Source: Eudorina sp. 2006-703-Eu-15 | Taxonomy: Eukaryota; Chlorophyta; Chlorophyceae; Chlamydomonadales; Volvocaceae | Reading direction: 5' to 3' | NCBI GenBank assembly: GCA_003117195.1 | Contig: BDSI01000135.1 | Location: 253,008-317,007 of the forward strand | DNA length: 64,000 nucleotides | Shown: positions 1,235-49,688 of the stretch, in pieces | Layout of the letters: each line of letters begins with the position of its first letter | Position numbering within the stretch: position 1 is the stretch's first letter | Notes under the pieces: generated by a model | What the model saw: the letters and a program-made list of their open reading frames with translations, nothing else | What the model was told of the DNA's origin: nothing | Databases searched by the model: none | Made by a program: the position numbers and the translations under genes

Positions 1235-4200
1235 CTAACATGCGGCGCTGACGAAATGCACGATCCGCGGTGCGCGCTCAGGAAACTTGCTACGGAACCA
1301 CGCATATCGATCGGACATTTTGAAAGCGGTCCACGTAGGGGTCTCCAGGAACGCGCGGAACGCAGGCAGGCGCTTGACGTTGTCGTACGGCTCCCAAGCT
1401 GGGTCGCGGGAGGCTGACCACTGCACGAGGAAGACGACGGACGGGCGCAGCTGCTTGTCGTATCCCAGGCGGACGGCGGTGATGGTGGTGTCGGCACTGT
1501 CGTACGGGGACTCCAGCGCGACGGGGATGGTGGGGGGCGGCGGTGGGCGATCGGGGAAGAGGCTGGAATCGTTGTCAGTCCAGGGGAGAAGGCGGGAGAT
1601 GTGGAAGACGGGATGGATGCGGCCGAGGGCCGGAGGTAGATCGAGGCGATAGGTGACGGGAGAGATGACGGCGGAGATGGTGAAGGGACCGAGGTAGCGA
1701 GGGCGGAGTTTTGGGGAGGGGAAATCGGGCAGGGTGAGGTTAGTGGTGGAAAGGCGGACTTTGTCGCCGATCCGGAAGGTGAGGTCACGGCGATGCTGAT
1801 TGGCGGTGGCGGAGTAGCGGGTTTTGGCGGCTTCGAGTTCAGTGGCGATGGTGGAATGGATATCACGCAGATGACGATGGAGGTCGGCGGCGGCGGGGTG
1901 GGCGGGGGTAGATGACGACGAGGGCAGAGTGGCGGGGGTGATGGGGTGGTAACCATAATTGGCGTAGAAGGGAGTGGTACCGGTGCTGGCGTGGGTGGAG
2001 TTGTTGTAGGCGGCTTCAGCGATAGGAAGGTAGGAGGCCCAAGTGTCCTGCATTGGCTGGACGTACGCACGAAGGATTTGCTCGATGGTGCGGTGGGTAC
2101 GTTCGGTTTGACCGTCGGTTTGGGGATGGTAGGCGGAGGAGAGGTTGAGGGAGGTGCCGAGGTGTTCCCAGAAGGTACGCCAGACTGCGGCAATGAAGCG
2201 GGGGTCGCGGTCGGAGACGATGGTGGTGGGGAGGCCGTGGAGGCGATAGACGTGGGCAAGGTAGAGCATGGCGGTGTCGCGGGCGGTGATGGACTTGTTG
2301 GCGGGGGCGAAGTGGGCTTGTTTGGTGAACATATCAACGAAGGTGACGACGGCGGTGTAGGTACGGCCATCCAGGCCTTTGGATGGGGGTAGGTCGGTGA
2401 TGAGATCCATAGACACGTGGGTCCACGGGCGCGTTGGTGTAGGCAGGGGATGGAGGAGGCCAGGCGGGGGCTGGGTGGAGGGTTTGGAGCGTTGACAAAT
2501 GGCGCAGGATTGAACGTAGGCTTTGATGGTGCGGCTCATATGGGGCCACCAGTACCGGGTGGAGAGGGCGGCGAGGGTACGGCGGAAACCAGGGTGACCC
2601 GAGTAGGCGGCGTCGTGGAACTCATGAAGAAGGCGGCGGCGAATGGTGGGATCGTTGGGGACGGCGATGCGGTTGGCGAAGTAGAAGAAACCATCGGTGG
2701 AGCGGTGGAGGTAGGGTTTGCTGGGGGAGGGGCCGTTGAACATAGGGTCAGCGGCGTAACCCGAGCGGATGGCGGCGGCGAGGTTGGGGTCCGGGAGGAC
2801 GTGGGAGGCGATGGCGAAGCAGGAATGACGCAGAGCGTTGTTGGCGGGGATGTCGATAGGTGGGGAGGTGGTGGGCCAGAGTGGAACAGGCGGTGATGAC
2901 GAGGCGACGGCGGAGGCGAGGGACGGCGGAGCGGGGGCGGAGGGTTCGGGGAACGGTGGTGGATTGACGGGAAAGCGGGACAGGGCGTCGGCCATGTTCT
3001 GGGGACCAGGCCGGTAGGTGATGGTGATGTAGCCTTGGAAGGGGGCGAGGAGTTGAGCCCAACGAGCTTGGCGACGGGAGAGATCCTTTTGGGTGAAGAA
3101 ACGCTGCAAGGTGTCGTGGTCGGTGCAGAGGGTAAAGTGGCAACCTTCAAGGTAGCACCTGAACTTACGCACAGCGTGTACGACAGCAAGCAGCTCCAGC
3201 TCGTGGATGGGGTAGTTGGCTTCGTGGCGGTTGAGCTTGCGGGACTCAAACGCGACGGGATGGAGGGCACCATGTCGCTCTTGGAGCAAGACGGCGCCGA
3301 GACCAAGGATGGAGGCGTCGGTGTACAGGGTGAAGGTGGCGGAGGGTCCGGTTTCAGGGATGATGAGGGCGGGGGCGGAGATGAGGGCGTCACGGAGGGC
3401 ATGGAAGGCGGCGACGGCGTCGGCGGGGAGAACTTTTGGGAAGGGCTGCGTGGTCTTGGTGAGGGCGGTGAGTGGATTGGCGATGCGGGCGTAGTCTTGG
3501 ATGAAGCGGCGATAGAATCCAGTGAAGCCAAGGAAGGCACGGATGTCGGTGATGGTGGAGGGAACGGGGAAGTTGGCGAGGGCGGCGAGCTTTTCTGGGT
3601 CCGTGGTGATACCATCACGTGAGACGATAAAACCACAGAACTTGGTGGAGGGCTGGGCGAAGGAGCACTTGGACAGGCGGACGTGGAGGTTATTGGAGCG
3701 GAGGGTGCGGAGAACGGCTTCAACGTCTCGGCAATGGTCTTCGAAGGTGCGTGAGTATATCAGCACATCATCGAGGTACACAACGGCGCACTTGTTGCGG
3801 AAGGGGCGGAGGACGTCGTTCATAAGTGACATGAAGGTGGCGGGGGCGCCGGTGAGGCCGAAGGGGAGGACGAGCCATTCGTACAGGCCGTACTTGCAAT
3901 GAAAGGCTGTCTTGTGGACATCCGGTTCATGAACACGGACTTGATGGTAACCCGACCAGAGATCCAGCTTTGTGAAGTAGGCAGCGCCGTACAGCTGGTC
4001 CAGGAGCTCGTCAACTCGTGGCAGAGGGTACGCATTCTTGACGGTGAGCTGGTTAATCGCGCGGAAATCAACACAGAGGCGCAGTCCGTTGCCACCAGGT
4101 TTGCGGGCGAACAGAATAGGAGCGCCAAAGGGAGAAGTCGACGGGCGAATCCAACCACGGTCGAGATAGTCCTTGAGCTGCCGGTCGAGCTCTTGGAGTT

Positions 4201-6256
4201 CAGCCGGGGACATGCGGTATTCACGCTGCTTGGGCGGCTGGGCGTCGGGGACGAGGGGGATTTGATGGTCGCAGGGGCGGTATGGCGGAAGACCAGAAGG
4301 CTCGGAGAAGACGGCGGAGTGGCGGTCGAGGATGGATTGGAGGGCTGGCGGTACGGACGGGGACGGTGGCGAAGGCTGTGGTGGGGCTTCGGGGTCGATT
4401 TCTGGATCATCGAGAGGGCGGAGCATGCCGAAGTAGACAGGCGGAGCAGGGACGAATGGGGCACGTTTGCGGTGGTGGGTGGCGGTGGAGGGAGGGGGGC
4501 GGGCGGCGGCTTGGCGGATGCATTTCTGCATGCGGGCGACGGAGACAAACTCAATGGCGAGGGCGGAGGGCTGATACGGGGAACCACAGAGGGTGTGGGC
4601 GCCGACGGTGACGGTGTTGGAACGCCAATCGATGGGAGGGTTGTGCTGTGTTAACCAGGGCTTCCCAAGGATGGCATCATAACCGTCGAGGTCGAGGGTG
4701 AAGAAGGTGGTACGTTCGTGGTGGGACTGGATGGAGAGGTGGGTGTGGGTGAGAGCGGAAGAGGAGAGGGCGAGATGTCCGTTGGCTAGGCGGACGCGGA
4801 AGGCTTGTGAAGGCGGAAGGTCGGCGGGACGAAGGTGATGACGGGAGACGAAGGAATCGGCAATGAAGTTGCGGGATGCACCGGAATCAAGGAGAACCCG
4901 GGCGGGACGACCAGCGATGTAGGCGTCGAAGACGATGAGGGCGGTGGAGAGGTCGGCGGCTGCGAGGCGGCCGAGGATGGGAGGAACGGTAACCTGCGTG
5001 GTGGACGTGTTTTCGTCGACAGGTGGCAGGGTAGGCTGAGGGAGACGACAGTGTTGCTTGAGGGCGGGGCGGGGGATGGGAACGGCACGAGGTGGTGGTT
5101 TGGAAGCGGAGGCGGTGGGCGGGGTGACGATGGGGGAGGCGAAGGTGACAGACGGCTGTGAGGAAGTTGGGGACGGAGGAGGCACAGCCTTGGCGGTGGA
5201 GAAGCAGGAGATGAGGCGGGCGACGTTGGAGCGAGGTGGTGGTGGGCGGTCGATGGGAGGCGGAGGTGGGGAGGCGGGATTGGAGAAACGGAGGACGAGG
5301 GACTGGACGGTGGAGACGGGTGTCGATGGGGGATCAGGCGGAGGCGGCGGATTGAGTGGAGGAGAAGGAGGCGACGAGGTAGAAAGAGGAGAAGGTGACG
5401 AGGTAGGAAGAGGAGGAGGCGGCGAGGTAGGAAGAGGAGAAGGCGGAGACGGCAGGGAGGTTGCGGAGGAGGTGGCGAGATTGAAGGGGATGGAAGATGG
5501 CGGGTCGTGAAGGGCGACGAGCGGCCATGAAGCGGGGCCAGGAGGTTCGTACTTGGAGGCGTCGTTGGGGCAGCGGCGGCAGATGACAGGCGCTCCAGCG
5601 GGAAAACGGCGGACGACTGTCATGTGGCGGATTAGGGGCGCCCAGGGGGCGTCGGGGCGGTCCGGCAAGATGATGACGGCTGAGGTGCGAGGGTTGGCGG
5701 ACTTGGACTCCAGGTACTGGGCGACGAAGGCGGACGGGTTGCGGGTCGGCGGAACCATCCATACACACTCTCCTTCGACATGAGCCGAAAGAAAGGAGCG
5801 GGACGGCGAGAAGAACGGCGTGACGTGGGCGTTGATGCCGTAGTCATCACAGCAGGCATCGACGGTGAACGGGCCAAACTGCGAATCGAAATCGAGGAAC
5901 GTAGGGCGCGCTAGCATCCAATCGTGTTCAGCCGAGTCGACTCCCGATGGCGTGGAAGTTGTAGCGACATGAGCACGCATACAACCCACTCGGCGGGCAG
6001 GCTTACTGGCGACCAGGGCTAGGCGCTGACGGTCGAACGCTTGTTCGGACGATGACGCGACGTCAGGCACGGCTGACGGTTGCACAGCAGAACGCACCGG
6101 CGGGCTGTGACTTACGTGTTTGACCGGTGACGACGGCGAGGTCGATTTAGCGGCGCTCCGAGGAGCGCGACGAGGTGCGGGATGGCTGTCCCTTGCGCGG
6201 GTGGGGGCTGTCGGCGCGGCGGCTGGGGGAGCGGCCGCGGTCGGGGCGGTGGTCAC
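1235..6256 (-). CDS. pol: Pol polyprotein of element 1 (MT-like, PR, RT, RH, IN, chromodomain-like)
   Basis: A 1673-codon frame encodes the replication enzymes. Residues about 120-230 resemble the Dam-like methyltransferase module of DIRS-type elements, with VDACCDD early and a degenerate VPP where NPPF/Y would be. A proline-rich linker follows. The aspartic protease has DSGAS at about 457-461. RT spans about 680-840 with YLDD at 827-830. RNase H has YTDAS near 978-982. Integrase has an H2C2 zinc motif (about 1211-1254) and a DDE core with Asp about 1284, Asp about 1349 and Glu about 1385. The last about 80 residues contain FLVQWSASRDPAWEPYDN, a chromodomain-like segment that may steer insertion to chromatin. 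Pol overlaps the end of gag in another frame, so a frameshift or reinitiation is implied. The first ATG is not proven to be the start. Confidence 0.95.
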   Translation of the reverse strand: MTTAPTAAAPPAAAPTAPTRARDSHPAPRRAPRSAAKSTSPSSPVKHVSHSPPVRSAVQPSAVPDVASSSEQAFDRQRLALVASKPARRVGCMRAHVATTSTPSGVDSAEHDWMLARPTFLDFDSQFGPFTVDACCDDYGINAHVTPFFSPSRSFLSAHVEGECVWMVPPTRNPSAFVAQYLESKSANPRTSAVIILPDRPDAPWAPLIRHMTVVRRFPAGAPVICRRCPNDASKYEPPGPASWPLVALHDPPSSIPFNLATSSATSLPSPPSPLPTSPPPPLPTSSPSPLSTSSPPSPPLNPPPPPDPPSTPVSTVQSLVLRFSNPASPPPPPIDRPPPPRSNVARLISCFSTAKAVPPPSPTSSQPSVTFASPIVTPPTASASKPPPRAVPIPRPALKQHCRLPQPTLPPVDENTSTTQVTVPPILGRLAAADLSTALIVFDAYIAGRPARVLLDSGASRNFIADSFVSRHHLRPADLPPSQAFRVRLANGHLALSSSALTHTHLSIQSHHERTTFFTLDLDGYDAILGKPWLTQHNPPIDWRSNTVTVGAHTLCGSPYQPSALAIEFVSVARMQKCIRQAAARPPPSTATHHRKRAPFVPAPPVYFGMLRPLDDPEIDPEAPPQPSPPSPSVPPALQSILDRHSAVFSEPSGLPPYRPCDHQIPLVPDAQPPKQREYRMSPAELQELDRQLKDYLDRGWIRPSTSPFGAPILFARKPGGNGLRLCVDFRAINQLTVKNAYPLPRVDELLDQLYGAAYFTKLDLWSGYHQVRVHEPDVHKTAFHCKYGLYEWLVLPFGLTGAPATFMSLMNDVLRPFRNKCAVVYLDDVLIYSRTFEDHCRDVEAVLRTLRSNNLHVRLSKCSFAQPSTKFCGFIVSRDGITTDPEKLAALANFPVPSTITDIRAFLGFTGFYRRFIQDYARIANPLTALTKTTQPFPKVLPADAVAAFHALRDALISAPALIIPETGPSATFTLYTDASILGLGAVLLQERHGALHPVAFESRKLNRHEANYPIHELELLAVVHAVRKFRCYLEGCHFTLCTDHDTLQRFFTQKDLSRRQARWAQLLAPFQGYITITYRPGPQNMADALSRFPVNPPPFPEPSAPAPPSLASAVASSSPPVPLWPTTSPPIDIPANNALRHSCFAIASHVLPDPNLAAAIRSGYAADPMFNGPSPSKPYLHRSTDGFFYFANRIAVPNDPTIRRRLLHEFHDAAYSGHPGFRRTLAALSTRYWWPHMSRTIKAYVQSCAICQRSKPSTQPPPGLLHPLPTPTRPWTHVSMDLITDLPPSKGLDGRTYTAVVTFVDMFTKQAHFAPANKSITARDTAMLYLAHVYRLHGLPTTIVSDRDPRFIAAVWRTFWEHLGTSLNLSSAYHPQTDGQTERTHRTIEQILRAYVQPMQDTWASYLPIAEAAYNNSTHASTGTTPFYANYGYHPITPATLPSSSSTPAHPAAADLHRHLRDIHSTIATELEAAKTRYSATANQHRRDLTFRIGDKVRLSTTNLTLPDFPSPKLRPRYLGPFTISAVISPVTYRLDLPPALGRIHPVFHISRLLPWTDNDSSLFPDRPPPPPTIPVALESPYDSADTTITAVRLGYDKQLRPSVVFLVQWSASRDPAWEPYDNVKRLPAFRAFLETPTWTAFKMSDRYAWFRSKFPERAPRIVHFVSAAC

Positions 6257-7668
6257 GGCTGCTGTTGCTGCGAAAGGAGCGGTCGTCGCGGTTGTCGCGG
6301 CGGTCGTGGCGGTCCTGATGGTCGTTGTATCGGGCGGGCGAGCGGGAGGCGGAGGGGCGGGCGGGCGAGCGGGAGGCAGAGGGGCGGCGGCGCTGCTGCT
6401 GGCGGATCTTGGCCTTGAGGTCGGGGCAGTCCAGCTTGTCGTGGTTGCTGGCGCCGCACTGCAGGCAGAGGCCGGCGTCCTGGCGCTGCTGGCGGAGGGC
6501 GGCGCTGACGCCCACGCAGCGGGTGCCGCGCGGCAGGCGGGCGGACAAGGCGGCGGACGTGTCCATGGGGTCGTGCGGGCGGGTGTCCAGCGGGGCGCGG
6601 CCGGTGGACCGGTTCAGCAGGCTGGCGTTGATGTGGCCGGCGGTGATGCCGGTGGCCAGGTCGATGACGTCCTGCAGGTGCATGCCGTCGTCCTCCAGGA
6701 GGCGGCTGAACACCTCGCGGCGGAGGTCGTCCCGCAAGCCCTTGGCAAACACGAAGACGTTGTCGTGCTCGCACCGTTCAGGGATGTCCGTGATCAGGGT
6801 CAGGAAGTCGGTGATGTATACGGCCAAGGAGCGGGGCCCGCTGCCCTGACGCAGCTTGTCAAGGTCGAGCGGCGGTTCACCCGCGGCGAGATGGGTTTGA
6901 GCGCGGCGAGGACGTGGTCGAAGGACCGGAACGGCTCAATCTCGTGGGCGATGAGCAGGGACACCTGCGCCTTGCCCACGACGCACTGGATGCCGACCAG
7001 GGCTCCGTCCAGGGAGTTGGGCTCCACCCGGTGGAGCTGCATCTGGTGGCGGAGGGCGCGGGCCCAGTCGTCCAGGTGGTCGGAGGGGTTGGCGGGGTCG
7101 TAGGTCGGGCGCTTGATTCGGGGGGCGGTGGGTGCGCTCGACGAGCCAGAGGGGCCCGGAGCAGCGGCGGGGGGGCGTGGTAGGCGGCGGAAGCGGGCGG
7201 CGGCTGCGGAGGCGGCGGGGTTGTGCGCAAGGCGGCGACGACGGCGGCGCGGACGGCGGACTCCACGGCGGCGGCGATGGATCTGGTCTGCGACTCAGTC
7301 ATCCGGAACGGGGCGGAGGCGGCGGCGGCGAACGGGCGGCCCGAACTGGTGGCCGCGGCGGCCGAGGCGCGGCGGTCGATGAGGGCGGTCAGGGACGGCG
7401 GCGGAGGGGGGGACGGCGGCCAGTCGCGGTTGCGAGGGTGCTGGGCGGTGTAGTCAGGCTGGTGATGCGGCAGAAGGTGGTCGCTGGGGGCGGGTGCCGG
7501 GCCGGGGTGGCGGTCCGGCTCGGGGGAGAAGAAGTCGTCCGGGGTGCGCGAACGGAGGTTCGGCGGCATCCCCTCGATGGAGGAGCGGCTACGCGAACGG
7601 GACGTAGGGTCGCCGGGGAGGTCCGGGTCGGCGGTGATCTCGGGGTGAGCGGCGGATGGGGCAGCCAT
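6147..7668 (-). pseudogene. gag: Gag of element 1, interrupted by two frame changes
   Basis: Three frames together make one Gag. The N-terminal part (from 7668) is rich in Pro, Ala and Arg. The frame changes near 7120, at a run of six G, into a capsid-like segment beginning RPTYDPANPSDHLDDWARAL. It changes again near 6890 into the frame that runs to 6147 and carries the typical YITDFLTLI helix and FVFAKGL motif. A CCHC zinc knuckle CLQCGASNHDKLDC (CX2CX4HX4C) follows, then an Arg/Ser-rich tail. Gag packages the element RNA. Because the LTRs are identical, the two shifts are either very recent or consensus errors; the first sits in a homopolymer. The ATG at 7668 is the first in-frame Met after the primer-binding site. 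Confidence 0.85.
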
Positions 7669-7730
7669 GTCGACGGAGAAAACGAGGCGGCGCAGCGGCG
7701 GCGACGAGGCGAGCGAGGAGGATCACCCAA

Positions 7731-7742
7731 GCTCGGATACCA
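7731..7742 (-). promoter_or_regulatory. Primer-binding site of element 1
   Basis: On the minus strand TGGTATCCGAGC lies two bases inside the 5' LTR. It starts TGG, complementary to the CCA end of a tRNA, and differs by one base from the classic initiator-methionine site TGGTATCAGAGC. Minus-strand DNA synthesis would start here. Confidence 0.85.
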
Positions 7743-7744
7743 AC

Positions 7745-8014
7745 TGAAAGGGAATAGGACCTCTCGAAGTTGGGAGCTCAAAGGTTGTTACACAGTTGTA
7801 ATGTTGAATGGCGTACGCCGACTTCACACACTTCAGAATGCACAACAACTTAAGTCTACTATAGTCAGCAACATAACTCCATAATATAGCCTCTACCGGC
7901 GGCGCACTAGAGGCGCACCGGGAGTCGTACTCAAACAAACTTAACGATCAACTTAACGGCAAACAAAGTTACCGATCAAAACAACTGCTGACTAGCCTAC
8001 GGCTAATCCTTACA
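7745..8014 (-). repeat. 5' LTR of element 1
   Basis: This 270-bp direct repeat is identical by eye to 562-831. It should carry the promoter for the genomic RNA, although I cannot point to a certain TATA box. The outer flank CGTAACT matches the other side of the insertion. Confidence 0.95.
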
Positions 8015-8021
8015 CGTAACT

Positions 8022-8640
8022 AAAGTAGAACCACAGAGGTCAAGCAGGGGGTTATGCGACAACAGCGCGTGACATGCCACAAGCAAGCAAATGCCCAACA
8101 CATGGAACCCGCCCTCTACGTGCAAGAGCCACCGTAGACTGACCTGAAAGCAAGGGAAGCAATGCGCCCGCAGAATAGGGAAGAAACAACGAAGGGCAGT
8201 TAGTGTCGGTTAAGAATCGAGGACTGGATGATAATGCCATGGCGGTGCACAGGCAAATACGCACGCGTGGACGCAACCGGCCTATGTTAATAATATGGCT
8301 GTAAGGCTGAGAAGTAAGGAAGCTTTGGCGCGGGGGCGGATTATAGCAGGATTGCGAGCCGTACTATGATGGCGGTTACTGGCGGGACTGGCGGCGCGGG
8401 CGAGAGCAAATTTCCGGGGCAAAGGGCACGGAAATGGAGCAGAACCCCAACCCGTAGCTCTGAACTCGCGGGCATGAGCAGGTGGCCAGAGGGCAATGGG
8501 CAATGACATGGCAAACCCAAAAGACCGAGGCGGCAGAGGCCCCGTCCCCATCCCCGGGAAAAGGTGGCGTGCGGGCTCGCATGAGCTCCCCACAGCACCA
8601 CCCACCCCAGCGGAGCGAATGCATGCAGCTCGCTGGGGCG
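8022..8640. other. Non-coding stretch between element 1 and the GGCA satellite
   Basis: No frame here has recognisable protein features. Open frames on both strands are short or are extensions of the neighbouring low-complexity repeat. I see no gene. Confidence 0.5.
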
Positions 8641-8834
8641 TCACGTGGCAGGTGGCAGGCAGGCAGGCGGGCGACAAGCAGGCATGCAGGGTGGCAGGAT
8701 CGCGGGCAGGCAGGCAGGCGTGCCGGCTGGGAGGCCGGCGGGTAGGCAGGCGGGCGGGTAGGCAGACAGGCAGGCAGGCTGGCAGGCATGCGGGCAGGCA
8801 GGCGGGCAGGTAGGCAGGCTGGCAGGCATGCGGG

Positions 8835-41651: not shown

Positions 41652-43512
41652 TTGGAGGGTCTCAGTCAGGGAAGGAATGACTCACGGGGTGTTGCTGCTG
41701 AAATGCACGATGGACCCGTACCGGTTTTGCAGGATGGGCCTGCTATTGTTCCGCCTGACTTGAGTGATTGGTTGCCGCCTCCGCCAGAGGCTGAGACGTC
41801 TGATAGGATGTTTTTGGACTCAGAATTTCGAGCGGTTCAAACGAAGCTCGGTCGGACGTTCACCTTTGACGCGGCGTGTAATGATGATGGCGGCAATCGA
41901 TTGTGTCAGCGTTTTGCCTGTCCCAGCCGTTCGTTCTTCGACCATGATGTGTCGGGCGAAGCGGTATGGGCTCACCCTCCAGTCACACAGATCGATCAAT
42001 GGCTGCGGCATTATCAGAAATGCAAGCTCAAATTGCCAGAGTGTACAAGCGCTGTGTTTGTTGCGCCACAGTGGCCGCATGCCCAGTATCTTTTCAGGAA
42101 AGCTGGATTCCAACTGTTTAAGACATACCCTGTGGGAACGCAGTTGTTTACGGGCCCAGGGAAAGATGGACAACGGGTGCAGCTACCGGGAATTCATTGG
42201 CCGGTGCAGCTTTGGTACGACCCGCCCAGGGAACCAGCGAAGTTGAGTACTCTGTGTGTTGGGCGCAGTCATACGATGCAGTTCGATGCTAGGATTGCCG
42301 ATTCTCCAGCACGAACTCTGGTAGACAGCGGTGCGGATTGCAACGGAACTGCCCATGGCTTTATTACGTTGTCCCTTGCACGACGCTTGTCTTTGCTTGT
42401 ACAGCAATCAGTTACGGTCACGGTACGGCTTGCAGATGGCCAATCCTCTCGGTTACACGGTCAGGTCCGTGCTAGATTACGGATTGGAAATCATACCGAG
42501 TGGGTCACACTGTTGGTGCTGCCCGAAGGGGTGCCGGGAATCGACGTAATCCTGAGTTCAGATTGGCTACACGCCCGCCAAGCACGTATGGATTACAAGC
42601 GTAACAGGGTGATCATTTGCCACAAAGGACGTGATGTCAAACTCAAGCCGTCACACGCAGCGCTGGAAGGCTTTGATCCGCTGAGCGGCAAACCGCTGCT
42701 TAGTACCGCAACTGTTCAGGTTACCGGCGATAAGGATATAGGGCTCCTTTCTGCTAAACAAGCGGCAAAGGCCCTTGCACGGGGAGCGCGCAGTTATCTA
42801 ATGCTGGTGCGCGCAGAGAGCCAACCGTCCGTCGAGCGCACAGCGCTCGCAGCAACCGTCGCTGGCCGAGCCGAAAGTGTCGGTGACAACCTGGTTCCGG
42901 AGCAGGAAATACAGGCGCTATTACATGAATTTCAGGACGTGTTTGAAGAGCTCAAAGGCCTACCGCCTGACCGCGGTACCGGTCACACTATTCCCCTCGT
43001 GCCGAATGCGGAACCGCCTGCAAAACGGATGTATAGGCTTTCGCCTAAAGAAATGGAGGAAGTACGGAAACAAGTCACCGATCTTCTGGCGAAAGGTTAT
43101 ATTGAGCCTTCCAATTCCCCGTACGGGGCGCCGGTACTTTTCGTCCAGAAAGCAAGCGGAGAGCTGCGTATGTGCCTCGACTATCGCGCTCTGAACAAAA
43201 TTACGGTGAAAAGGCGGTACCCAATGCCCAACATCACGGAAATTTTTGACACGCTACAAGGTGCACAAGTGTTTACATCACTTGACCTCCAGCAAGGTTA
43301 TTATCAGATCCGCATATCTCCGGAAGATATTCCCAAAACGGTATTTATCGCCCGGGGAATGGGTCAGTTCGCTTTTCGGGTACTTTGTTTCGGACTGACA
43401 AATGCGCCTGCGACTTTCCAATCCGTGATGAATGGGATTTTTGCTAAGTACATTGGGAAATTTGTCCTAGTGTATTTGGACGACATTTTGGTGTTTAGTA
43501 AGACACCTGGCG
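41652..43512 (+). pseudogene. pol: Pol of gypsy element 2, 5' part (MT-like, protease, RT)
   Basis: This frame is the same as gag, separated only by TAG 41634-41636 and five codons. Residues about 51-170 (genomic 41800-42160) are the methyltransferase-like domain: FTFDAACNDDGGNRLCQRF, CPSRSFF, VWAHPP, VAPQWPHAQ. Protease has ARTLVDSGADCNG (about residue 225). RT begins near YRLSPKEMEEV, with LDLQQGYYQIRI, FRVLCFGLTNAPATF and FVLVYLDDILVFSKTPG. At 43512 coding stops at the insertion of the nested DNA element. The codons after it, ending at 43547, belong to that element. Confidence 0.95.
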
Positions 43513-43523
43513 CAGCTCACCGT

Positions 43524-43582
43524 TACATGTTGGGGCTCCTACGGTAGGAGACGTACTTTTCTCCTATACAGGAGAAACGACC
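43524..43582 (+). repeat. Left terminal inverted repeat of the YR/protease element
   Basis: The 59-bp repeat contains two palindromic modules: CTCCTACGGTAGGAG, and TTCTCCTATACAGGAGAA. Each has 6-7-bp inverted arms around a short spacer, the architecture of tyrosine-recombinase core sites. It ends in CAGGAGAAACGACC, close to the box repeated in the internal array. Confidence 0.9.
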
Positions 43583-43678
43583 TGAATGGATTCTTTCGCA
43601 ACTGATACTGAACGTATTATAATGACGTTTAGGTCATAACATATAGGGTGGCAAGTTCGTTATGGCGAGTATTACCAA

Positions 43679-44128
43679 ATGTTCATGAACAACATCTCCC
43701 GCAAAGGATCAGTCGCGATCGTTGCTCTCATTATTGTTGTGCTCACAATTAGGAACTATGAATGGATTATAGCGGCCTCGGGGCTCACTGGCGGCGGCAG
43801 TCGCCTCAGCATGGCCAGTAACGGCACTTTTACTATGTCCGACAGCTCGGAAGGTTTTGAGGAAAAGTTTAAATCTTCTCGGTTCACCCGAGGGGCCTCA
43901 TCCAAACGTAAACTTGGAGATGGTAAAGACGGTGCGGACGGCAGCCTCCCTGCTAGCCCAGGAGAATCGCCCGTGTGTCTACTAGCTCAGGAGAACGATC
44001 ACGCGTCTACTAGCTCAGGAGAATCGCCCGTGTGTCTACTAGCTCAGGAGAACGACCACGCGTCTGCTAGCCCAGGAGAATCGCCCGTGTGTCTACTAGC
44101 TCAGGAGAATCGCCCGTGTGCCTACTAG
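43679..44128 (+). CDS. Possible membrane-anchored ORF reading into the box array
   Basis: A 149-codon frame starts MFMNNISRKGSVAIVALIIV, with a hydrophobic segment at about 11-22 that could span a membrane, followed by Ser/Gly-rich and charged residues (SSEGFEEKFKSSRF, SSKRKLGDGKDG). From 43960 it reads through the 28-29-bp boxes as GESPVCLLAQEN repeats and stops at 44128. The pre-repeat part looks protein-like, but no family is recognised and coding status is uncertain. Confidence 0.3.
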   Translation: MFMNNISRKGSVAIVALIIVVLTIRNYEWIIAASGLTGGGSRLSMASNGTFTMSDSSEGFEEKFKSSRFTRGASSKRKLGDGKDGADGSLPASPGESPVCLLAQENDHASTSSGESPVCLLAQENDHASASPGESPVCLLAQENRPCAY

Positions 44129-44485
44129 CCCAGGAGAATCGCCCGTGTGTCTACTAGCTCAGGAGAATCGCCCGTGTGTCTACTAGCCCAGGAGAATCGC
44201 CCGTGTGTCTACTAGCTCAGGAGAACGACCACGCGTCTACTAGCCCAGGAGAATCGCCCGTGTGTCTACTAGCCCAGGAGAATCGCCCGTGTGTCTACTA
44301 GCCCAGGAGAATCGCCCGTGTGTCTACTAGCTCAGGAGAACGACCACGCGTCTGCTAGCCCAGGAGAATCGCCCGTGTGTCTACTAGCCCAGGAGAATCG
44401 CCCGTGTGTCTACTAGCCCAGGAGAATCGCCCGTGTGTCTACTAGCCCAGGAGAATCGCCCGTGTGTCTACTAGCCCAGGAGAAT
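43964..44485. repeat. Array of about 19 CAGGAGAA boxes (28-29-bp period)
   Basis: Two box types alternate: CAGGAGAATCGCCCGTGTGT and CAGGAGAACGACCACGCGTC, joined by CTACTAGCC/T. I count about 19 CAGGAGAA words. The word is shared with the inner end of both TIRs (CAGGAGAAACGACC). No spacers of unique sequence occur, so it is a minisatellite or iteron-like array. Confidence 0.9.
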
Positions 44486-44499
44486 TGCTTTGCACGCTT

Positions 44500-45249
44500 C
44501 TACGCTCCAAACCTGCGGCTGTTGAAGCCGACCATCATGGACAGCACAAGATGCACGATCTCGCTCACATCCACGCGCTGGTTCCCGACGGTTTGCCCCA
44601 TGCAGCGCCCAAACTCCGCGACGTAGTAGCCACAGCTGTAGCTGTCGTTCTGCTGTGGGACATTCCGTGAGTACCGCACCGACCACAGGTTCACATCGAT
44701 GGTGCCCTGCAAGTACTTCTTGACCAGCAGCATGATGTTGTTGTGGGCCTTGCTTGTCTCGAGCATCTTCCCAGCCGCAGCGGAGTCGTACACGGTCATG
44801 ACCTTTTTCTTGATGTCCACCACCAGCAGCCACCAGTGGATGTTGCTCGTACGACACGTGTCAACACGCGTGTTGACCGGAAGCAGCCACATGCCGTACT
44901 CCTCGGATGCCTTGTCTTCTGGGTAGTGGTTAGCCTTGCGGTTGGCTGGGCGAGCAGAGAGCATAAGCCGCCACCAGCGCTCTCTTGACGGTATCCGCCT
45001 GGAGCGAGCTCCCTAGATCCTTACTTTTGGGGGCCAGCCACACGCCGCGGAGCCGCACTTTCCAGCACACGTGCCATCACATTTGGGTGCGCAGTGTGGG
45101 TCGTCCAACTCCATGCCGGGCCGATCTTCTGCCCTCTGAAGCGTGTTGGCCGTGCCCTTCTCCTCATCCTCCAGGTCCTCCGCCGCGTCGCTGGGAGGTA
45201 CACCGGCGGCGGCTGTCTTGGCTTCCACCTTGCACCAAGCAGCGATCAA
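44500..45249 (-). CDS. Ulp1/C48-like cysteine protease of the TIR element
   Basis: The main exon (44500-44964) contains IHWWLLVVDIKKKVMTVYDS and VPQQNDSYSCGYYVAEFGRC. The H-W, the Asp in VYDS, the Gln and the SCG correspond to the His-Asp-Gln-Cys catalytic set of SUMO/NEDD-deconjugating C48 proteases. An upstream frame (45013-45249) ends in a Cys-rich stretch, CAPKCDGTCAGKCGSAAC, and could be an earlier exon; the junction is not resolved. Such proteases recur in algal and plant DNA transposons (Mutator- and KDZ-like) and may process element or host SUMO-conjugated proteins. It is divergent in orientation from the recombinase gene. Confidence 0.8.
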
Positions 45250-45620
45250 TATCGCCTCTCGACGGTTAACAATGTCCGACTCGCAGCAACCCAGTGCCGG
45301 TCTGGCTTCTTCTATCCAGCCGGTAAAACATTAAATCGTATCGCCTCTCAATGCGACGGCGGGCTATTTAGCCTACGAGTGTTACGACTTCTGGACTATG
45401 CTTGCTCCTCGCAGGTTAGCTCCGGCCTCGTGCTGGGTGCGTTATTGCCCGTTCCGGGCGGATATGCCATCGTTCCCCTGAGCGGCGTGGTGGTGCCCTC
45501 TCGAGCTGGCGTGGCCTCTCCTGCTCTTACACCGGCAGCTCCCGCCGTTGGTTCGCAGTCCCGCACCGGCCCACTCTCTTTGCCGTCCTACCGACAGATG
45601 CTGAAACGGGCCGTAATGAC

Positions 45621-46856
45621 ATGATGCAGGGCATCCGGCCGCGCTCGTTCGCCGCAGCGCGTCTTGCCACTCTCACTCGTGCTAGCCCTGGACCCCAGCC
45701 TCCTCGGGCCGCCCCCACCGTGGCTGCGGTGCGTGAAAAGGGGCTGCTGTCTGCGCTGGGCTTCTTGCGGCATGCCAAGTCGGAATCCACCTGGGAGAGC
45801 CAGCAGGCCGCCGCCCAGGAGTTCTCGGATTGGCTGGCTGTCTACGGCGAGGGTGCAGACCTCACCACCTGCACCCCTGAGGACGTGCTCATCTACCTCA
45901 TGGCGCACTGGTTGCTGGCTCACCGTGGCCGCAAGCGGCCTGACGGGCTGGTGGGGCCAGCCGCAGTGAAGGCGACGCTCTCTAGCCTTAACGGCTTCTT
46001 CTCCCACGCGGGGCGGGAGGGCCACTACAACGAATCCACGTGCCTGGGTAACCCTTGCGAGTCCGTGTGGGTCAGCGATTTTCGGAAAGCCTTTGAGCGG
46101 GTCTCGATGCTGGACGGCTACCTGGAGCAATCGGCCGTCCCAATGACCGAGGCCAAGTACCGACTGCTGGTGCGCTATCTGTGGGACCTGTACTGCGCCA
46201 GCTCCAGTGTTCTGGGCGCGCTAGTGACCTTGCGCGATTTGCTGGGCTGCCAGTACATGTGGCTCAGCAGCCAGCGCGGGCACGACACCGGCAAGCTAGC
46301 CCTCGCCGACTTCGTCGATCCTGCTGACCCAAGCAAGCCGTATCAAAGCTTCCCGCTCCCGGCCCCGCAGCTCTGGCCGGCGGATCACGCCAGCCCCACC
46401 CTGTGCGTTGCGGAGCGCGGCACCAAGACGAGCCGCCTCAGCCGTGCACCACCTGTCATCCTGGCCCCTAATCCCGCGGAGCCAGAGTTCAGCTTCCCGC
46501 ACACCCTGGCGCTCTACATGTCGCTCGCGAGCAGCCCTACAGCCCCCCCGGGTAGCGCCATCACGGATCACCTCCTTCGCCCCCTGCGCCCGGACCGACA
46601 TGGGTTCCAGGAGGCGCCCCTCAGCAGCACCGCACTGGGCGCGCGCATCCGGCTACACCTGATGATGTCCGGGGCCTATGAGGGCGAGACCAGCCACAGC
46701 TTCCGCCGTGGTGCGCTCCAGCACGCCGCAGCTCAGGGTGCCAACCTAGAGACCTTGCATGCGCTCAGCCAGCTGCGCAGTGCGGAGATCCTTAAGAGGT
46801 ACCTGGACCCGCACCGCCAGCATGGGGCCCGCCGGGTGCGGCCCCGCAACAACTAA
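45621..46856 (+). CDS. Tyrosine recombinase of the TIR element
   Basis: An intact 411-codon frame starts MMQGIRPRSFAAARLAT. Residues about 37-135 form the helical core-binding domain (FLRHAKSESTWES...). Box I fits GALVTLRDLLGCQYMWL (Arg about 205). Box II is ETSHSFRRGALQHAAA (His 359, Arg 362). The nucleophile lies in SAEILKRYLDP (Tyr 394). The enzyme ends in a basic tail. This is the only integrase/transposase-like gene in the element and is expected to recombine its ends. The nearest relatives by motif are eukaryotic Crypton and YR-retroelement recombinases. A Met two codons earlier than an alternative Met makes the exact start unsure. It is the one large uninterrupted gene in the nest. Confidence 0.9.
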   Translation: MMQGIRPRSFAAARLATLTRASPGPQPPRAAPTVAAVREKGLLSALGFLRHAKSESTWESQQAAAQEFSDWLAVYGEGADLTTCTPEDVLIYLMAHWLLAHRGRKRPDGLVGPAAVKATLSSLNGFFSHAGREGHYNESTCLGNPCESVWVSDFRKAFERVSMLDGYLEQSAVPMTEAKYRLLVRYLWDLYCASSSVLGALVTLRDLLGCQYMWLSSQRGHDTGKLALADFVDPADPSKPYQSFPLPAPQLWPADHASPTLCVAERGTKTSRLSRAPPVILAPNPAEPEFSFPHTLALYMSLASSPTAPPGSAITDHLLRPLRPDRHGFQEAPLSSTALGARIRLHLMMSGAYEGETSHSFRRGALQHAAAQGANLETLHALSQLRSAEILKRYLDPHRQHGARRVRPRNN

Positions 46857-47242
46857 ATGCCCAAACAACACGGCTTTGCCGTATAAGTGTGGGAGGGTGG
46901 GGCAATTCAGCGCGTCGCCCCGCCTCCAATTTAATAGCCGTCTGTGTAGGTCGGTTATGATGCTAAGCGGTGCTGAAGGACGGAACGAGTTCGGCTGGTT
47001 TGCTGTTGGACAAAGAGGGTCTTGTCTGTGCTCAGAAAAATTGTGTCCATAAAGTAATTCCATAGCAATGTAAGCAGTCGTATGCCAATACATTTTATCC
47101 TTCGGCCTGCGTGAGTGCAGCCAGGCACGTCACACTGCTCCGCGCCGCTCCCGGCCATAGCCCACGAGCGCAAAATTCCTGCTGTACTAACTTATCCTCT
47201 GTAAACTGTACCTTATATAACAAAATGAAGCCGTTTTGTGAG
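46857..47242. other. 3' flank of the recombinase gene
   Basis: About 385 bp between the recombinase stop and the right TIR show no coding potential. AT content rises toward the TIR. It probably holds the polyadenylation signal, but none can be named with certainty. Confidence 0.5.
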
Positions 47243-47301
47243 GGTCGTTTCTCCTGTATAGGAGAAAGGTACGTCTCCTACCGTAGGAGCCCCAACATGT
47301 A
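47243..47301 (-). repeat. Right terminal inverted repeat of the YR/protease element
   Basis: Reverse complement of 43524-43582 with one mismatch. It contains the same two palindromic modules in mirrored order. Confidence 0.9.
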
Positions 47302-47319
47302 CTGCTAAGATGCCTGGCG

Positions 47320-49688
47320 AGCACGTACAACACCTCCGTACTGTGTTGTCGTTGCTGCGCGAGCACCAGTTCAAGGCTAAGCTGTCAAAATGCGACTTCA
47401 ATAAATCGGAATTGAAGTTCCTCGGGCATATCGTGAGCCGCGAGGGTCTGAAAGTTGATGCCACTAAAGTCGCGACGGTGCGTGATTGGCCCGTCCCCAA
47501 GGACGTTCGTAAGCTCCGCGAATTCCTTGGATTGGCAAATTACTTCAGACGCTTTATCCAGGGGTACTCGAGCTTAGCAGCTCCCTTGACAGCTCTGACC
47601 GGGTCGAAAGTGCCCTTCGACTGGTCGCCTCGGTGCCAAGCTGCATTCGAGGGCATTAAGACAGCCTTGATCAATGCACCTGTCCTCGCCCTACCCCAGC
47701 TGGATAAATCCTTTGAGGTCTGGTCCGACGCATCGATATACGGTACGGGAGCCGTCCTTATGCAGGACGGACACCCAGTAGCCTACACAAGCCAGAAGTT
47801 CACCAGTGCTGAACACAACTACACAACCACGGATCAGGAATGCCTCGGAGTCATTCACGCTTTGACGGAATGGCGCTGTTACCTAGAGGGTTGTGAGTTC
47901 ACTCTGGTTACGGACCACCACCCCTTGGTTTATTTGCATGAGCAGCGCGGAGCTGGGTTGCTGTCTCGCAGACAGGCACGCTGGATGGAATACCTTCAGC
48001 GGTTCAACGGTATGAAATGGGAATACCGTCCAGGGCGTATCAACGTGGCTGACCCCCTCAGTCGGATCCATGACACGGTGCTAACGGTGCTTGCCGGGGC
48101 CCTAACGGTTGGCGACCTTGGCAAACGGATACGTGGAGGGTATGCTGGAGACCCTTGGTTCTCAGGAAGAAAACCGAAGGCAGCACGGATGCAGTTAAAA
48201 AGACGGGAAGATGGGTTCTGGTACAAGGGAGATCAGATAGTCGTACCCAATGACCCCGCGCTGCGCACGTCAATTATTCAGGAGTACCATGACACTCCGT
48301 TCAGTGGGCACCGTGGTGCAAATCGCACCCAGGAAGCAATCGCGCGAACGTTCTGGTGGCCTGGCCTCCACACAGACGTACAACGATACGTTGCAGCTTG
48401 CCCTTCGTGCCAGCAAAACAAGCCCCTAAACAGGAAGCCGGGGGGCCTACTGCGTCCTCTCCCGATTCCACAGGGAGTGTGGGAAAGCGTGTCCCTGGAT
48501 CTGATCACACAGCTGCCAACCACCAAAAACGGGCATGACGCTGTCGTTGTGTTTGTGGACCGGCTCAGCAAAATGACCCACTTTGCTGCCACGCACACCA
48601 GCGCCACGGCGGAAGACTTGGCACGCCTATTTGTGTCCACTGTCTTCAAGCAACACGGACTACCCAGAAACTTAGTCTCAGACCGCGATCCACGGTTCAC
48701 GAGCAAATTCTGGAAGGAAGTAACGCGCCTGCTTGGGACTCATTGCTATATGAGTACGGCGTTTCATCCACAAACAGATGGCCAGACCGAGCGGATGAAC
48801 CGACTCCTAGAGGAGACACTCAGGCACTACATTGGTCCCACACATGATGATTGGGAAGACCACCTGCCGCTTGTGGAGTTCGCGATAAACAATGCTTGGC
48901 AGGAGTCTATTGGCACCACCCCGTTCTTATTGAACGGTGGGAGGCAGCCGCGTACCCCGGCTGACCTTGGGTTACAAAGTAATGTGCCTGGCGCTGTACG
49001 ATTCGAGTCCAGCCTCCGTGAACGACTCGCGAGAGCAAAGGCGTGCCTGCAAGTCGCGCAGGAACATCAGAAGAAGCATGCCGACAAGCGACGGAAAGCT
49101 GTCGCCTTCTCTGAGGGTCAAGAGGTGTTGCTCAATACGAAGAACATTACGTTCAAGTCCCCTGGGACGCGCAAGCTGATGCCGCGTTGGATCGGTCCGT
49201 ACCGTATAGAGAAGATGGTTGGATCCGCGGCCGCCAAACTCAGTTTGCCAGTAGACATGAAGATACACCCAGTGTTCCACGTTTCGTTGCTGAAACCTTA
49301 CAAGCGGGATGGCCGGACTCCGCCACCACCGGCCTTCACAATCGGTGAAAATGAGTACTGGATGGTAGATGATATCGTGGATCACCGAGATGTCAGTGCC
49401 GGTCGGGGCCGATACAGGCGCGAGTATTTTGTCAAATGGCAGGGCTTCCCACCTTCTGAAAACAGTTGGGAGCCTGACGACTCGCTACGAGAGTCCGCCC
49501 CGGTGGAACAGCTGGTGGAAGCATACGAAGCCCGCCTGCCTGAGGCGAGCCGCAAGGAGCATTGTCATGCTGCGCTCAAGGCGCAAAAACAGGAAAAACG
49601 GGCCAGGGAAGTGGCCCCTCCGCCTCAACAGGAGAAGCAAGATGCCTCGGCCGTTCCGCAGCCGCCGTTGGGTAAACAACAACGGTAA
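47320..49688 (+). pseudogene. pol: Pol of gypsy element 2, 3' part (RT end, RNase H, integrase, chromodomain)
   Basis: Coding resumes with EHVQHLRTVLSLLREHQFKA, exactly continuing the RT across the insertion. RNase H shows FEVWSDASIYGTGAVL. Integrase has the zinc motif (YHDTPFSGHRG, CPSCQQNK) and a DDE core in SLDLITQLP, VSDRDPRFTSKFW and HPQTDGQTERMN. The C-terminus is a canonical chromodomain: EYFVKWQGFPPSENSWEPDD. A Lys/Gln-rich tail ends with the stop at 49686-49688. Apart from the insertion this half is intact, so the element was probably functional when hit. Confidence 0.95.

Follow-up and report, generated by a model that had tools for sequence, protein, structure and literature searches.

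What moves a DNA element that has the outward form of a classic cut-and-paste transposon, when the genes recognised in it are for a Cre-like recombinase and a SUMO-type protease and a classic transposase is not seen? The question is raised by a 3,800-bp element (positions 43513-47312) in a stretch of 64,000 nucleotides from the green alga Eudorina sp. 2006-703-Eu-15 (assembly GCA_003117195.1, contig BDSI01000135.1, positions 253,008 to 317,007, forward strand), which we call the window and to which positions refer. Tyrosine recombinases (YRs) work by strand exchange at matching sites, and to our knowledge target duplications of fixed length and random sequence would not be expected of them. 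We find that the element belongs to a genuine family of DNA transposons with terminal inverted repeats (TIRs) of ~70 bp and variable 7-bp target-site duplications (TSDs), and we tentatively read its YR as the enzyme that moves the family.

A transposon family with variable 7-bp target duplications

The element is bounded by inverted ends and by CCTGGCG on each side, within a retrotransposon gene:

43506..43512, no strand: left 7-bp TSD, CCTGGCG, single in 6/6 uninterrupted gypsy copies
43513..43582, + strand: left TIR, tip CAGCTCACCGTTACATG
43558..43577, no strand: 8-4-8 palindrome TTTCTCCT-ATAC-AGGAGAAA in the left TIR (palindrome search of the element)
47243..47312, - strand: right TIR, tip, read inward, CATCTTAGCAGTACATG
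47248..47267, no strand: 8-4-8 palindrome in the right TIR (same search)
47313..47319, no strand: right 7-bp TSD, CCTGGCG (same empty-site comparison)
41652..49688, + strand: host chromodomain gypsy pol, split by the element and not part of it (open reading frame (ORF), Pfam and empty-site comparison)

The inverted ends are identical at 58 of 59 bp (98%) and, with an imperfect extension to the tips, form 71-nt arms that are 92% complementary. The element sits inside the reverse transcriptase (RT) of the gypsy. A search with 120 bases of flank gave 40 matches including the window, and all of the six near places examined carry a single CCTGGCG and no insert, so the CCTGGCG pair is a true target duplication; this empty-site comparison concerns the window insertion alone. 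A preliminary description, made from the window sequence, had placed an insertion at 43506..47319 with 59-bp inverted repeats and CCTGGCG as the repeated target. All three claims hold, the coordinates to the base.

In the 181-Mb source assembly, an 85-base TIR query gave 40 matches, and a 26-base TIR pattern with up to 3 mismatches gave 35 matches at 20 places (control, 0), all of them known family loci. Besides the window we examined 20 loci (L numbers below). Fifteen are two-ended (16 with the window; 1.2-9.1 kb), three are one-ended (L033, L040, L047), and in L048 and L050 all that remains is an end that has diverged or a short part of an end. Judging from its right flank, which is the same as that of L046, L047 is probably a duplicated stretch shared with that locus. 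By DNA comparison most copies consist of stretches common with the window plus a ~470-bp stretch; L046 is long because of a nested element.

An exact 7/7 duplication flanks 11 of the 16 two-ended copies, and all 11 sequences are different, which rules out site-specific YR integration at a shared core. The duplication matches at 6/7 in L038 and L045 and at 5/7 in L035, whereas L049 has no matching duplication (3/7). Some junctions are imprecise: L031 has the same 7-mer 2 bp further out, with two extra bases, L035 has its mismatches at both outer TSD positions, and the left tip of L044 is GCGCT instead of CAGCT. With TIRs otherwise near-perfect, these three look as if repair at insertion were occasionally inexact.

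Over the outer 80 bp every compared copy has 0-1 difference from the window, except L049 (left 38; right 0). The left 80 bp were compared in 16 copies other than the window and L049, and the choice of copies by an exact 17-base tip match lowers these counts. In 20-bp bins, copies differ pairwise by 0-1.2% within the TIRs, by 0.6-5.5% over the 220-240 bp that follow and by as much as 12.4% deeper in the element (17 left and 15 right ends). We attribute the low TIR divergence to selection for mobile ends, although subfamily mosaicism could contribute. The family was probably active recently. Chance inverted repeats are excluded by the many copies and the empty sites. As the copies are dispersed and carry independent TSDs, any explanation of the element by chance or by faulty assembly is also improbable in the extreme.

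Beyond the known loci, searches for the ends across the assembly returned only L070, L071 and L072. In the older relict L070 the first 18 bp of the left end survive unchanged, next to a remnant of the protease (~52% identity) that is oriented opposite to the window protease; the inner palindromes are lost. L071 and L072 are single tip matches with one mismatch each (reversed-pattern control, 0 in both searches) and without protein match or internal DNA match of weight, and may be chance matches or worn-out ends.

Two further observations concern the surroundings of family copies. Right-hand parts of copies (L056-L060, on contigs C718, C594, C476 and C1893 and at the start of C70) lie inside a nearly identical block of 4.4-7.5 kb, common to the small contigs and the C70 start and placed beside long inverted repeats in three of them; the block is perhaps subtelomeric. 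In the window, the gypsy ORF at 41652-43547 has a weak match to Dam N6-adenine methyltransferase (PF05869, E 7e-4, below cut-off) at residues 59-120, upstream of the gypsy protease and RT.

A Cre-fold recombinase and a C48/Ulp1-like protease

Between the TIRs the window element holds the following features:

45621-46856, + strand: YR, 411 aa, full-length ORF (ORF, alignment, AlphaFold, Foldseek)
46412..46541, + strand: YR segment missing from other copies, codons ~264-307 with the invariant Lys269 (alignment of copies)
44500..44964, - strand: C48/Ulp1-like cysteine protease, N-terminally truncated, 154 aa (Pfam PF02902, E 5.2e-14; SENP1 alignment)
43953..44485, no strand: 29-bp minisatellite, 18.5 copies, some units carrying CAGGAGAACGACC
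43679..44128, + strand: 149-codon ORF, role not assigned, its end running into the minisatellite (no Pfam family over cut-off)

The window YR matches its Pfam family weakly (PF00589, E 0.25), and the best of eight relatives scanned is also under cut-off (PF00589, E 8.7e-4). Among 7999 candidates scored we found 15 relatives, of which five carry the name Gonium, Pleodorina or Volvox and P0001-P0006 are the closest; viral contigs and bacterial and archaeal genomes gave none of use. In a 20-sequence alignment that includes the window, Arg205, Arg219, Lys269 and Arg362 are invariant and His359 and Tyr394 nearly so. Of the catalytic residues first proposed (Arg205, His359, Arg362 and Tyr394), the last three thus stand; Arg205 is invariant, but we judge Arg219 the likelier box-I arginine. 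An AlphaFold model, made with an alignment of 14 sequences (P0006 and P0014 left out), reached a predicted local distance difference test score (pLDDT) of 80.5 and a predicted template-modelling score (pTM) of 0.60. Its best Foldseek match is Cre (E 1.8e-10, TM 0.43/0.52), which gives the 411-aa protein a Cre-like predicted fold. A profile sequence search of the PDB with the YR gave nothing useful.

In a tree of 19 rows (P0006 left out), the window YR and P0001-P0005 form a clade with 98/98 support that is separate from four further YR elements of this genome (L051, L053, L055 and L063), among which L055 has a long branch and an uncertain position. This grouping bears on the view that a non-autonomous TIR transposon captured a YR and, separately, a protease as passengers without a role in movement. 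YR genes are indeed abundant in this genome in other element types (at least 105 matches, fragments counted apart; 101/212 candidates scored), the relict L070 has a tip and a protease with no YR match, and L045, at 7 kb, is a TIR copy without a YR. However, the YR has a clade to itself, separate from the other tested YR elements, long direct repeats such as a YR element would have are not seen around it inside the TIR element, and L045, which is long because of its minisatellites, looks like a deletion derivative filled with them. We consider a passenger origin of the two genes unlikely.

The predicted protease is C48/Ulp1-like, as first described, and is encoded separately from the YR. Its Peptidase_C48 match spans profile positions 88-182 of 217, the same stretch that other copies match, and alignment to SENP1 places the H, D, Q and C motif residues. 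Six other copies have ~470 bp more directly upstream, where an open frame continues the protease, and we therefore judge the window protease to be N-terminally truncated. In at least eight other copies the reading is broken over two frames. A homologue search for the protease, with 7999 candidates scored, found none at E <= 0.001.

About 130 bp of the YR gene, including Lys269, are absent from 13/13 other copies aligned across the segment. The segment is retained in L056-L060, which are truncated upstream, and from 46419 on in L038; L033, L040 and L045, which contain unrelated or tandem-repeat DNA, are without the region altogether. The YR frame remains open across the deletion in L037 and L042. 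We rejected the reading of the segment as an intron: copies with the deletion still have the GTGCGT that lies near its start, and the segment is coding sequence that relatives conserve. Because one YR deletion sits at many sites with separate TSDs, the family probably spread in trans.

Of the remaining features, the minisatellite units with CAGGAGAACGACC resemble by eye the inner TIR edge, and the array varies in length between copies. The 149-codon ORF may not be a gene.

Candidates for the enzyme that moves the family

Pfam detected no DDE transposase among the ORFs of the window element, and no RT there apart from the host gypsy. Pfam was run on the window ORFs, and the other copies were compared by DNA alignment to the window and by their ORF lists, in which no DDE ORF was noticed by eye (for most copies, in the first 60 residues per ORF). 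None of the loci returned by the end searches has a DDE gene, and none of the seven KDZ domain matches in the genome lies in family loci, which removes a KDZ element from consideration. The recognised coding content of the family is a Cre-fold YR and a C48/Ulp1-like protease, and the YR is the sole recombination enzyme among it. The preliminary description had foreseen a multi-copy TIR family with YR, C48 and 7-bp flanks, and such a family is found, with variable TSDs and no DDE gene seen. It had also named two contrary outcomes, TIR copies with a DDE transposase and no YR, and a YR that is a separate insertion. Neither was found; one copy with TIRs and no YR exists (L045), yet it has no visible DDE gene.

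The reading we favour, to which we give close to an even chance, is that the family is moved by its own YR, through excision and insertion that leave 7-bp duplications. It draws on the 20 places that share the ends, the exact TSDs in 11/16 copies and the six empty sites for the window insertion; on catalytic-type residues conserved across relatives, several of them volvocine; on a YR with its own clade (98/98) in a coding pair that is also that of some Cryptons; and on the Cre-like predicted fold and the precedent of Starship captains, which are reported to create variable target duplications (PMC12506042). The YR, most likely the recombinase of the family, would bind the TIRs, which hold the 8-4-8 palindrome, and then excise the element. 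The palindrome of the left TIR, speculatively a candidate recombinase-type site of the kind a YR could bind, is among three in the element whose arms are at least 8 and whose loop is at most 8. For insertion the YR would cut the two target strands with a 7-bp stagger, which falls in the 6-8 bp range of YR overlaps, and the target sequence would come to flank the element on both sides through fill-in or through repair that follows the chromosomal strand. Most copies no longer have an intact YR; these were probably mobilised in trans by the YR of a full-length copy like that of the window, or of a copy outside the assembly. The protease may serve to deSUMOylate the recombinase or host repair factors.

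We are more tentative about the complete scheme, in which a YR acts at long TIRs and inserts at arbitrary 7-bp staggered targets with fill-in duplications and the help of a deSUMOylase-like protease; it is a possibility that we place below even. For a YR of that kind, a match between donor and target overlaps would no longer be required. Should the encoded YR indeed make the duplications, it would represent a new mechanism of transposition and might offer a tool for insertion with low site preference.

Several observations weigh against movement by the YR. Variable 7-bp TSDs are the expected outcome of staggered DDE strand transfer, and in classical YR exchange sequence is conserved and overlaps have to match, whereas no two of the 11 exact TSDs are alike. 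No TSD accompanies the insertion of the related YR element nested in L046, L070 has no YR match, and none of the copies examined has both YR and protease intact. Relative to the majority of other copies, the window YR has 12 nonsynonymous and 4 synonymous codon differences (11 and 3 after dropping two positions that few rows cover), some of them at sites where the relatives hardly vary (Asn124, Cys141), and it may therefore already be decaying; P0001 agrees with the window at 3/12 of the nonsynonymous sites and with the other copies at 6/12. Pairwise ratios of nonsynonymous to synonymous differences (pN/pS) are 0.35-1.95 on small counts, with the L046 row mixed with its nested YR, and the window YR gives no clear sign of recent purifying selection. 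The intact 411-codon YR of the preliminary description is thus confirmed as an open frame and not as part of a complete working unit, the protease being truncated.

A serious contender, to which we give somewhat less than an even chance, is that a DDE-type transposase made the ends and the 7-bp duplications in trans, from an element absent from or unrecognised in the assembly. The YR would then be accessory, for example resolving intermediates as proposed for Tec, and the C48 protease auxiliary as in Mutator, Ginger and Crypton. DDE strand transfer typically yields variable 7-bp TSDs and exact empty sites, the absence of clear purifying selection on the window YR fits an accessory role, and copies with both genes broken retain near-perfect ends, which points to a mover acting in trans. 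Precedents for DDE together with YR are Tec1/Tec2 and MarCry, in passages of PMC3212892. However, the end searches of the assembly gave no element with a DDE gene, the KDZ matches in the family are 0/7, and no transposase remnant was recognised in the copies examined.

If the YR is not the mover, the family still shows that the pair of YR and C48 protease, described in oomycete Cryptons, also occurs elsewhere, within a TIR element. The family is small, with a full-length YR frame open to testing, and its mode of movement is a testable question.

Comparison with known systems

Cryptons had at first been taken to lack both TIRs and proteases. They do have no TIRs, no long direct repeats and only 4-6-bp terminal direct repeats, but some have a protease: in passages of PMC3212892, CryptonF-2_PS and some CryptonS of oomycetes encode a YR and a C48/Ulp1 peptidase. 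The element here is likewise a DNA element with YR and C48 and without RT and DDE, but it has ~70-bp TIRs and a 7-bp duplication that differs in every exact copy.

Tec elements have TIRs and TA target duplications. Tec1, Tec2 and Tec3 resemble the element here as YR-encoding TIR elements, but the passages in PMC3212892 give Tec1 and Tec2 of Euplotes a DDE transposase beside the YR, and none is seen here. MarCry-1_FO shares TIRs, TSDs and an internal Crypton YR but has a mariner DDE transposase and a TA TSD (PMC3212892, in part). Starships, as portrayed in parts of PMC12506042 and PMC9594970, are also YR-driven DNA elements that leave target duplications: movement by the YR captain is reported to create them, and the direct repeats vary in length and sequence (PMC12506042). 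Their examples exceed 100 kb, with a DUF3435 captain and cargo, whereas the copies here are 1.2-9.1 kb. The window YR has no DUF3435-type Pfam match at E <= 1, only the weak PF00589 match.

The split-direct-repeat YR elements of the same genome, which from their layout we take to be of PAT-like/Kangaroo type, encode related YRs (42-50% identity). They differ from the element here in having the order A1-YR-B1A2-B2 in one fully resolved family and long direct repeats in two more, with no TIR found and no TSD in the single insertion resolved. L053 belongs to the full split-direct-repeat family; L055 and L063 have long direct repeats, with no second B repeat found. Split direct repeats and an RT of the PAT/Kangaroo/Ngaro kind are absent from the window element. 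The YR element nested in L046 (~2944-8816 of the element, contig C7) has A1/A2 repeats of 105 bp (99%) and B1/B2 repeats of 165 bp (100%); like L052-L054 it contains a minisatellite and no RT was seen in it, and the type has at least a dozen genome copies with a 400-codon YR frame. YR matches on C101 at 45641, 49132, 52624 and 56119, spaced by ~3.49 kb, suggest a head-to-tail array of a YR element.

KDZ transposons carry Ulp1. According to passages of the respective sources, KDZ elements in Cryptococcus have 4-8-bp TSDs and 139-241-bp TIRs (PMC12810828), and Ginger1 and Mutator have an Ulp1 domain (PMC2836005). These transposons share TIRs, TSDs and Ulp1 with the element here and differ in their DDE transposase. 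The family has the general marks of TIR cut-and-paste transposition, namely TIRs, a TSD of fixed length and variable sequence and, for the window copy, an empty site.

In a survey of green algae, PAT-like DIRS, Zisupton and Kyakuja are named; its main text does not contain the word Crypton (PMC8226300). In the open-licence literature, a scope that leaves Repbase reports outside, no paper was found on YR and C48 with long TIRs and variable 7-bp TSDs without DDE. The family thus matches none that we found in joining a YR, long TIRs, variable 7-bp duplications and a C48 protease without a DDE gene, while its parts are familiar in pairs: YR with C48 in oomycete Cryptons, and TIRs with YR, alongside a DDE gene, in Tec and MarCry.

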